Under the pieces are notes generated by a model. That model saw only the letters and a list, made by a program, of their open reading frames with translations, searched no databases and was not told the origin of the DNA. DNA of 64,000 bases from Hyphomicrobiales bacterium (GTDB lineage: Bacteria; Pseudomonadota; Alphaproteobacteria; Parvibaculales; Parvibaculaceae): positions 186,001 to 250,000 of the forward strand of contig WGND01000011.1 of the NCBI GenBank assembly GCA_016124805.1, written 5' to 3'. Shown here piece by piece: positions 2,401 through 5,031 of this stretch. The stretch's first letter is position 1. The number at the start of each line of letters is the position of its first letter. Made by a program: the position numbers and the translations under genes.

Positions 2401-2475
2401 GCGCCCTTCGTCTATCGGTTAGGACGCCAGATTTTCATTCTGGAAAGAGGGGTTCGACTCCCCTAGGGCGTACCA
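2401..2475 (+). tRNA. tRNA-Glu (anticodon TTC)
   Basis: A full cloverleaf can be folded: acceptor GCGCCCT pairs with AGGGCGT, the anticodon stem CCAGA/TCTGG encloses a loop with TTC at 2434-2436, the T arm is AGGGG-loop-CCCCT, and CCA is encoded at 2473-2475. Its 3' 32 bases recur at 5000-5031, marking it as the integration target of the small island that begins immediately after it. Confidence 0.97.
2444..2475 (+). repeat. attL: 3' end of tRNA-Glu, left border repeat of island
   Basis: These 32 bases of the tRNA (anticodon-stem end, T arm, acceptor and CCA) are repeated directly at 5000-5031 with one mismatch (C2458 versus T5014). The neighbouring TTCTGG (2438-2443 region) also recurs at 4991-4996, separated by three extra A residues. 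Site-specific recombinases of the tyrosine family commonly use tRNA 3' ends, and the intact tRNA stays on the upstream side, as here. Confidence 0.85.
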
Positions 2476-2930
2476 AAAATCTCACAATAAAATCATTGGC
2501 TTAGTCCCTGTCGCTTGCGGGCTTTGAGAAGGGTAGACACTTTCCCGACGGGCGGTTAGACAGTTTCGCGTTCTGTTATGTAATTTCGCGCTCGTTGACG
2601 GAACTCTTTCGTTTTCATTCTGACCCATCCGGTGGTCCCTGCAATTCAACTCTTATGAACTATTGCCTTTCCTATACGTTTCGACCCCGCCAACTTCATT
2701 AGCCTTTTCACCAAGTTTAGCGGATTGAAAAATGTGATCGCTTGGCTAGTGATTGGCTCAATGAATAAGGCCCCTGGTCCAGCGGTTTTCGGCACAAAGT
2801 CTTTGGCAAACTTCCTATTTTGATCATGCTGTTGTGGCAATTTCTTAGAGCATTCCCCATATTCTGTTTAATGGTACGATTCGGACCTTTGGCTTAGTTG
2901 TAAAAATGAAACTTATAGGGACGATTTCAG
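2476..2930. other. Noncoding left flank of the island, with phased TTTC motifs
   Basis: No convincing gene lies in these 455 bases. A 64-codon minus-strand frame at 2646-2840 shows no recognisable domain and no clear ribosome site. Four TTTC motifs begin at 2541, 2564, 2584 and 2607, spaced 23, 20 and 23 bases, the middle two extended to TTTCGCG. Such phased copies near an element end can be recombinase or regulator sites. The last part must hold the promoter of the three-gene cassette, but I cannot place it confidently. Confidence 0.45.
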
Positions 2931-3659
2931 ATGGAGAATAATTACGGTCGTCCTCCAATTACCGAAGCCGTAGTTGAATTTCGGCTTTTGGCACCAGTTG
3001 ATGCAAACTTGGTGCAAAGAATTGGGACATCTTTTAATTCATTCTATCCACGTTCGGAAGATCTCCAGGAAATTGAATTTCAGATCGGACCGGCGGGCGC
3101 CCAAACTAGGCGGACAGGACTGGTTGGCTTCAAGCGCACGAACGTTGATGCAAATGAAATTGTGGTGATTAAGGCCGGGTCACTAAATATTGCACAACTA
3201 GCTCCATATCCGGGATGGGATCACTTTATAGAAAGAGTGAGGCGCGATTGGAAATTATGGCGCAGTAAAACTAATTATCGCGATCTTGCGCGTATTGGTG
3301 TGCGATTTTTGAATCGGATAGATATACCTCACGGTGCGGGTGAGGTGACCTTTGTCCCTAAGGATTATGTGTTGGTTGGTCCTGCAATTCCCGAGGCTTT
3401 CGGTGACCTAAAAGCTTATCATGTGAATGCTGTGCTTCGGAGTGAAGATTTGAGGGCAGATGTTACACTGAATTCTGGAACGGTTGAGTCGCCTTTGCTG
3501 AAGCATTCATCTCTGCTGCTGGACATTGATATTGGACGAATTGAAGATATGCCCAAAAAGGAAGATGATATATTTGAATTTCTGGAAGCTGTTCGCCTGG
3601 AAAAAAATCGTCTTTTTGAGGCGTGTCTCACTGAAGATTCGCGAAAGCTTTTCTTATGA
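2931..3659 (+). CDS. TIGR04255-like protein, first gene of island cassette
   Basis: A 242-residue protein of unknown function. The N-terminal RPPITEAVVEFRL, the central GFKRTNVDANEIV stretch and the later RIGVRFLNRIDIP resemble the sporadically distributed TIGR04255 family as I remember it, for which no biochemical role is established. No signal peptide or membrane segment is seen, so it is probably cytoplasmic. AGGGA at 2917-2921 lies upstream of the ATG. Its stop overlaps the next start in ATGA, implying translational coupling. Codon use is AT-richer than that of recJ and the downstream genes, supporting transfer. The family match is from memory of motif shape and should be treated as likely, not proven. 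Confidence 0.75.
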   Translation: MENNYGRPPITEAVVEFRLLAPVDANLVQRIGTSFNSFYPRSEDLQEIEFQIGPAGAQTRRTGLVGFKRTNVDANEIVVIKAGSLNIAQLAPYPGWDHFIERVRRDWKLWRSKTNYRDLARIGVRFLNRIDIPHGAGEVTFVPKDYVLVGPAIPEAFGDLKAYHVNAVLRSEDLRADVTLNSGTVESPLLKHSSLLLDIDIGRIEDMPKKEDDIFEFLEAVRLEKNRLFEACLTEDSRKLFL

Positions 3660-4255
3660 GCACAAGGTTTTCAGTAGTAAGCAAGCCGCGGCCGGCATCA
3701 GGTTTTCCTTTGACTGAGATTCCCGGTAGTACCTCTGGTGCTATCTCGGAAAAGCTTGTGCAGGATCGTTACAGATCACTTTCACAAAGTGTGAGTGATG
3801 CACCAAAGAAGGAATCTGCAGCAACTTTGGAGCAAAAGCTGTTTGATGCATTGGTTAACGCGAAAGTGTCGACTTCCCATGTAGCAATGCATCTTGAGAA
3901 CGAATGGCGTCAAAGATTGTTTCGTCAACTTGATTCATTGATGGCTATAGAAGATTGGGATGCTTCCGACGCGCCTTTGGAGGGAAATTCATTCTCTACA
4001 TTCTTGCGCACTATTTTGTTTCTCAGGCCAAAACGTGCTCCGGGTTTAGGTATGACTTCCACAGGTGAAATTGTAGCGGCTTGGACGAGGGATCAGGACC
4101 GTCTAACGATGGAGTTTGGAAATGCAGACCAAGTTCGATGGACATTGTCGCGTGTTGACAGTGGGGGAAGGGAGCGCGCTGCCGGTGAAACTTATGCTGA
4201 TCGCATGGAGCAGGTTCTCGCACCGTATTTTCCAGATCGGTGGTTTGAACGATGA
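3656..4255 (+). CDS. Unknown protein, second gene of island cassette
   Basis: A 199-residue protein that I do not recognise as a named family. The first 60 residues look low in order (Ser, Lys and Pro-rich), followed by a more compact region: FLRTILFLRPKRAPGLGMT, then EIVAAW, then VRWTLSRV and RERAAGETYADRM, ending APYFPDRWFER. The alternating strands suggest a small alpha/beta or beta-rich domain. No transmembrane helix or signal peptide is visible. It overlaps the gene before and the gene after by four bases each (ATGA), so the three are expected to be made together. Function is unknown; a partner of the TIGR04255-like protein is the simplest inference. Confidence 0.75.
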   Translation: MSTRFSVVSKPRPASGFPLTEIPGSTSGAISEKLVQDRYRSLSQSVSDAPKKESAATLEQKLFDALVNAKVSTSHVAMHLENEWRQRLFRQLDSLMAIEDWDASDAPLEGNSFSTFLRTILFLRPKRAPGLGMTSTGEIVAAWTRDQDRLTMEFGNADQVRWTLSRVDSGGRERAAGETYADRMEQVLAPYFPDRWFER

Positions 4256-4689
4256 GTGTCGTTAATATCCCGCATGAGCATCACGTTATTCGTTATGCTT
4301 CTTGGACCAAGCTGAGGAAAGATGAGAACGACAACGTGCTCGGTATACTCCCGGATGCTTTGAGACTCCGGGAGGTTGAAACGTCGTTGTCTACGACATG
4401 GATCGAGTGGTTTGATGGCCCACCGCAGAACCAATATCTCAATGCAGTAGAAATGATACGGAGGACAATGTCAGTCTCGCCTCGCGGAGGTATGTCTAAG
4501 GCGAATGTTGGAAATCTCCGCGAGCTGTGCCAAACAGAAAATGTTTCTATTCGTATAGTACATGAACCGACTGACGAGAATGATGCCCATGCTAGCATTC
4601 GTCGGTTGCCTCGCGATAATTTGGACTTGCTTGAATTGCTAGCGGCAGAGGCTTTTACGGAAACGATTTTGAATCGCGATCTTCCTTAG
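4252..4689 (+). CDS. Unknown protein, third gene of island cassette
   Basis: A 145-residue acidic protein of no recognised family. Visible features are an N-terminal HHVIRYASWTKLRKDE segment, a LREVETSLSTTWIEWFDG stretch and an Ala/Leu/Glu-rich C-terminal helix (LLELLAAEAFTETIL). No membrane segment, metal motif or nuclease motif stands out. The ATG overlaps the previous stop. I have the impression that genes of this kind recur next to TIGR04255 genes in other proteobacteria, which would make a conserved three-gene unit, but that is an unverified recollection. Confidence 0.72.
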   Translation: MSVVNIPHEHHVIRYASWTKLRKDENDNVLGILPDALRLREVETSLSTTWIEWFDGPPQNQYLNAVEMIRRTMSVSPRGGMSKANVGNLRELCQTENVSIRIVHEPTDENDAHASIRRLPRDNLDLLELLAAEAFTETILNRDLP

Positions 4690-4999
4690 TCTGTATGCAC
4701 CCGATTTACTTGCTCCGCCTTTAAAAAAAGACGTGTCTAAACCGATAACAATATGTCGTTCGCAAAGTCTGGTGGCATCGCAGGATGAAGGTCAAGTAAG
4801 TTTGCTTTCAAATCTAGATAGCCAACGTCATGGCCATTCGACTTTGCATTATTTAATTTACGAACCTCAATATTTTCTTGAGTGAAAGGTGTGGTCAGTT
4901 TTTACTTTAAGTTACTGATGTATATATGAATTATTTGACGGAAAAATCTATCTAACCCATTGAAATTATTTAATTCTCTCCCTCTTTCCTTTCTGGAAA
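4690..4999. other. AT-rich noncoding right flank of the island
   Basis: About 310 bases without a credible gene. The stretch 4840-4990 is strongly A/T-rich with several TTATTTAATT-like tracts, unlike the chromosomal background. It ends at the TTCTGG-A-tract that precedes the repeated tRNA end. It could hold recombinase arm sites or a decayed gene; nothing specific can be claimed. Confidence 0.5.
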
Positions 5000-5031
5000 A
5001 AAGAGGGGTTCGATTCCCCTAGGGCGTACCA
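5000..5031 (+). repeat. attR: truncated copy of tRNA-Glu 3' end
   Basis: A 32-base direct copy of 2444-2475 with one substitution in the T loop (T at 5014). It lacks the D arm, the anticodon and the 5' acceptor strand, so it is not a functional tRNA. It marks the right border of the island. Normal GC-rich coding resumes within about 220 bases. Confidence 0.85.

Follow-up and report, generated by a model that had tools for sequence, protein, structure and literature searches.

Three short, translationally coupled genes, here called P1, P2 and P3, were found in a tRNA-associated island of a Hyphomicrobiales bacterium, and they constitute a real unit whose members are inherited jointly. On balance we give even chances to the proposal that this cassette is a mobile, modular conflict module, most likely an anti-phage one that would act via abortive infection. 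The window that we analysed is the whole stretch of DNA of 64,000 nucleotides, and the features on which the argument depends are listed below with their coordinates in that window.

2401..2475, + strand: tRNA-Glu (TTC), the integration target, located by ARAGORN; the attachment-site repeat (D1) corresponds to the 3' part of this gene
2476..5031, no strand assigned: integrated island, delimited by a direct repeat, GC content and cassette-free congener sites; three genes only
2534..2544, + strand: TAGACACTTTC, first direct copy of a repeat, just inside the tRNA end of the island
2557..2567, + strand: TAGACAGTTTC, second direct copy, 23 bp from the first
2931..3659, + strand: P1, 242 amino acids, TIGR04255 family; constant operon member and proposed sensor or scaffold
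3656..3659, + strand: ATGA, in which the stop codon of P1 overlaps the start codon of P2, read from the sequence
3656..4255, + strand: P2, 199 amino acids; helices followed by a beta domain
4252..4255, + strand: ATGA, in which the stop codon of P2 overlaps the start codon of P3, read from the sequence
4252..4689, + strand: P3, 145 amino acids, compact alpha/beta protein; proposed effector, exchangeable in related operons
4985..5031, + strand: far attachment-site copy of the 3' part of tRNA-Glu, identified as a direct repeat

The three coupled ORFs and both ATGA overlaps lie exactly where the original prediction had placed them, and its statement that only the first product belongs to a recognised family is likewise borne out. 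P1 matches the NCBIfam model TIGR04255 with 95.5 bits across profile positions 2-251 of 252, and, judged by this full-length coverage and a score above the curated cut-off of 30 bits, it is a member of that family. There is no credible match for P2 or P3 in Pfam, NCBIfam, PADLOC or PHROGs, all three window proteins gave zero matches in PADLOC, and searches of PDB sequences with profiles of P1, P2 and P3 returned nothing credible. A weak similarity of P2 to HslV (E 0.15) was discarded as noise. No member of the cassette matches any characterised toxin or sensor, nor does any match an established non-defence pathway, a possibility that the original prediction had asked to be checked. The NCBIfam entry describes TIGR04255 as a ‘sporadically distributed’ family of unknown function, and we found no mention of it in the papers that we searched. 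The family name is silent on P2, P3, the types of operon described below and their carriage by mobile elements.

The tRNA-Glu island and the same site in related genomes

The cassette occupies an AT-rich insert of approximately 2.5 kb between tRNA-Glu and a repeat of the 3' end of this gene. The repeat is identical to the tRNA at 31 of 32 nucleotides (5000-5031), with an additional 15-nucleotide partial match at 4985-4999, and the GC content of the island is 45.1%, compared with 62.2% in the left flank and 57.3% in the right. A repeat of the tRNA 3' end and cassette-free sites in related genomes, the two hallmarks of a tRNA-targeted island, are present. In these respects and in its low GC content the insert resembles the islands that tyrosine integrases direct to tRNA genes, whereas it differs from them in holding three genes only and no integrase gene. 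Besides P1, P2 and P3, the ORF list contains no credible reading frame within the island, and the claim that the cassette is its sole cargo holds.

Four congeners (L109, L111, L115 and L116) carry the same tRNA-Glu and no cassette; there, a conserved neighbour gene lies 416-515 bp from the tRNA. At the same tRNA-Glu of a sister species (G660; L110 6832-9092), a divergent P1-P2-P3 cassette is present in an insert bounded by a tRNA repeat with 43 of 45 nucleotides matching. Its P1 scores 84 bits against TIGR04255, and comparison of its P1, P2 and P3 by hhalign gives probabilities of 94, 93 and 81%, respectively, against 0.1-0.2% for cross controls. This second insert also retains the C-terminus of a tyrosine integrase, LGHRTLRMVQNYTKSAAQKRL, which matches the integrase of a viral contig (L154) with an E value of 2.4e-4. 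In another relative, G657, the site is occupied by genes for a membrane protein, an MBL protein and an HTH protein (L117 1066-3049, and L120), and the MBL protein corresponds to the PADLOC candidate PDC-M48B (E 5e-70). The tRNA-Glu site thus seems to attract cargo of the conflict type, as a hotspot would.

At the tRNA end of both the window island (2534-2567) and the sister-species island (8970-9001 of L110), the sequence TAGACA(C/G)TT occurs twice, 23 bp apart; a repeat such as TAGACACTTTC/TAGACAGTTTC is expected 0.01 times in the window. On the reverse strand these repeats resemble the coding end of tyrosine integrases that specifies GKVSNP, a trace that is faint in the window island and a clear remnant in L110. 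The copies may be the ends of integrase genes or arm-type sites. In viral contigs, the GTTAGACA repeat is mostly scattered, and L154 alone is informative, with the repeat at an integrase end. The sequence GTTAGACASTTTC occurs a single time in the whole genome.

Spread of the cassette and modular TIGR04255 operons

The original prediction had called for a search for co-occurrence of the three genes in other genomes, and this search succeeded. In a phylum-level sample of 398 genomes, TIGR04255 is present in 30; P3 is present in seven, with TIGR04255 adjacent in all seven, and P2 is likewise present in seven, with TIGR04255 adjacent in six. With the window genome left out, the corresponding hypergeometric p values are 9e-8 for P3 and 8e-6 for P2. 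A class-wide search with P2 identified two genomes, in both of which P1, P2 and P3 follow one another as in the window and overlap in the same way, and a scan of genome contigs with P1 yielded 29 loci. Overall, the complete cassette was found in order at 46 loci, although some locus counts rest on profiles that were iterated on those same loci, and borderline assignments, those of L086, L087 and L092 among them, are less certain for this reason. Profiles built from just two P2 or two P3 sequences recovered P1 neighbours at other loci. The hosts of P1-P2-P3 include alpha-, beta- and gammaproteobacteria, Planctomycetes and Ignavibacteriae. The spacing between P1 and P2 is -4 in 23 of the 46 loci and -1 in seven, and the distance matrices of P1, P2 and P3 correlate with one another (Mantel r 0.81, 0.80 and 0.91; 0 of 5000 permutations). 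The recurrence of one gene order, with the same overlaps, in several phyla makes the cassette more than a chance arrangement.

Some loci depart from this arrangement. One of them (L139 5135-7086) encodes a clear P2 and possibly a P3-like third protein, but its first gene is an unrecognised one that takes the position of TIGR04255. Among 72,556 plasmid records, P1 occurs in two, P2 in none and P3 in two. A plasmid of Acetobacter persici (L140 4965-6270) encodes a single protein with two P2-like domains in tandem; a short gene comes next, and TIGR04255 is absent. A plasmid of Rhizobium gallicum (L007 4938-5468) carries a P3 relative with 39% identity, P1 and P2 being absent, and this gene adjoins a VapC/DUF433 pair near nif genes.

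Carriage by mobile elements extends beyond the window. In all six IMG/VR contigs that contain P1 the cassette is complete, and it lies mostly at positions typical of prophage cargo, which include the terminase-portal interval (L145) and the region from the lysis genes to the integrase (L142 and L146). An integrase of the element itself is visible in three of these six contigs, and an intact one resides inside the island of L093. Searches of phage records with P1 and P3 by tblastn gave no matches. In 8 of 63 loci, P1 starts no further than 500 bp downstream of a tRNA gene on its own strand, whereas the count for control ORFs is 2 of 309 (p = 1.5e-5). The association persists when the window and G660 are omitted (6 of 61 loci, p = 3e-4); the other 55 of the 63 loci are not beside a tRNA gene. 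The original prediction had regarded presence as the sole cargo of a tRNA-targeted island as the pattern of an anti-phage or inter-element conflict system, an interpretation that is supported in part. Association with tRNA genes and prophages is indeed general, but known defence genes, for which it had proposed a check, proved to be only occasional neighbours, and most cassettes stand alone among housekeeping genes.

The third position of these operons varies. A census of 32 TIGR04255 loci from a random genome sample showed that the third slot is occupied by a P3-like protein in 14 (11 of these with a recognised P2), by one of two proteins with Cys motifs in 10 and by a HEPN protein in two; six loci are unclassified. 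The first gene is therefore constant and the last is exchangeable. The operon on plasmid pTB1 of Thermus brockianus (L005 5001-6695) exemplifies the HEPN type, with TIGR04255 and a HEPN third gene (PF05168, E 4e-6), and it is located approximately 2 kb from cas6. Two further TIGR04255 operons, L090 and L096, also have a HEPN third gene. Operons whose last protein carries an SHPC or SNTCD motif are represented by L071, L074, L079, L081 and L098 and by L072, L075, L083, L085 and L088; these proteins have no match in Pfam or PADLOC, and the long Cys type is preceded by an XRE-type HTH protein. Since TIGR04255 operons form a modular family with interchangeable third genes, the original description of a single three-gene system was correct as to the unit and too narrow as to its scope: the window cassette is one version among several.

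CBASS, AVAST and similar systems are modular abortive-infection systems in which a common core is combined with variable effectors. The operons described here are similar in their constant first and exchangeable third proteins and in their carriage by mobile elements. They differ in that they share no protein family with those systems, and their signal, sensor and effector activities are putative.

Characteristics of P2 and P3

The predicted model of P2 begins with approximately 55 residues of low confidence, followed by a confident helical and beta domain. The beta portion bears the motif WD..D / G.I.A.W, and P2 has homologues in the WDGYGA-type proteins that related operons encode; Foldseek comparison of the model with the PDB gave nothing below E 0.1. 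Homology to the P2 domain of relatives extends to a segment near the C-terminus of PDC-M32A, a component of the PADLOC phage defence candidate PDC-M32, which has been reported from a prophage of Sinorhizobium meliloti (PMC12429752). The P2 protein of L110 matches residues 260-348 of the 375 in PDC-M32A with an E value of 8e-9, and 5 of 23 P2 proteins match overall. We considered whether the cassette is itself PDC-M32 and rejected this assignment: P1, P2 and P3 of the window show no match to PDC-M32A up to E 1, and PDC-M32B, represented by one family model (PDLC04578), was found at E <= 10 in none of 11 genomes, comprising the window genome and ten others, nearly all with related operons. Unlike the three-gene cassette, PDC-M32 consists of two genes (A of approximately 375 amino acids, B of 131), and no TIGR04255 match was seen in it.

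P3 is modelled with high confidence (pLDDT 96.5), and its model retrieved nothing below E 0.1 from the PDB by Foldseek. A viral protein in BFVD, A0A9E7QQI2, has the same fold (E 1.6e-4). Residues R14, S47 and H113 are retained in 33, 34 and 33, respectively, of 34 very divergent members, and each is located on a predicted strand. One idea for this protein with its near-invariant triad is that P3 might be a minimal ADP-ribosyltransferase (ART)-like enzyme acting on NAD+, an idea that two of its top seven PDB fold matches (AvrPphF ORF2 and DarT) and the order of R, S and H on their strands, which is that of the ART motifs, could be taken to favour. However, these two fold matches are not significant (E 0.18 and 0.42, probability 0.18), and P3 has neither the R-S-E nor the H-Y-E triad of ARTs, its third residue being H and no E being invariant. 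We regard ART-like chemistry as quite improbable and keep the two ART matches as no more than a lead.

Explanations for the cassette

In the mechanism that would fit a conflict module, the constant member P1 would serve as sensor or scaffold, P2 as an adaptor, either linking P1 with the effector or keeping the effector silent, and P3 as the toxic effector, acting through a pocket formed by R, S and H. The three genes share one translationally coupled message, and their products would assemble into a complex. On invasion by a phage or a competing element, P3 would be released or activated and growth would stop, which may confer protection against phage. In related operons the effector slot would be filled by HEPN or by one of the two Cys-motif proteins. 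The cassette would have spread by means of tyrosine-integrase islands and prophages, and the window island would have lost its integrase while keeping its cargo.

The same genes might instead be an addiction module, similar to toxin-antitoxin systems, that ensures stable maintenance of the island or prophage; P3 would be the toxin, P1 and/or P2 would neutralise it, and no phage trigger would be involved. In favour of this reading, the operon is small, coupled and carried by mobile elements, its third slot can be occupied by HEPN or come after an XRE-type HTH protein, and the cassette is retained in an island that has lost its integrase. However, three genes with a large, conserved first member of 250 amino acids would be unusual for an addiction module, and the cassette is rare on plasmids. 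We consider this reading unlikely. A role outside conflict, for example in controlling lysogeny or in the fitness of the host when it meets some stress, would agree with the prophage cargo positions and with the absence of known defence domains; the exchange of the third gene, HEPN included, the presence of different cargo of the conflict type at this tRNA site and the wide but sporadic occurrence all speak against it, and we judge it improbable. That the cassette mobilises the island, as a new site-specific insertion module for tRNA 3' ends, is highly improbable: the missing integrase of the window island, the excess of P1 beside tRNA genes and the repeats spaced 23 bp apart that two independent islands have at their tRNA end could be read in this way, but integrases or their remnants accompany the cassette in L110, L093 and half of the prophage contigs, most loci are away from tRNA genes, and the proteins contain no recombinase-like motif.

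Returning to the conflict module, we tentatively propose, at somewhat less than even confidence, that TIGR04255 is the core of a new class of immune system, a mobile three-gene system whose effectors would be interchangeable and of at least four types, and in which P3 would represent a new enzyme family. The effector types that we put forward, with similar reserve, are the R-S-H protein P3, HEPN and the two Cys-motif proteins. TIGR04255 itself gains a role as the constant member of mobile, modular operons with defined partners and a conserved triad. If these operons serve in defence, they would constitute a new system without any known component, whose range extends from alphaproteobacteria as far as Planctomycetes, and Thermus and Cyanobacteria may harbour relatives of it.
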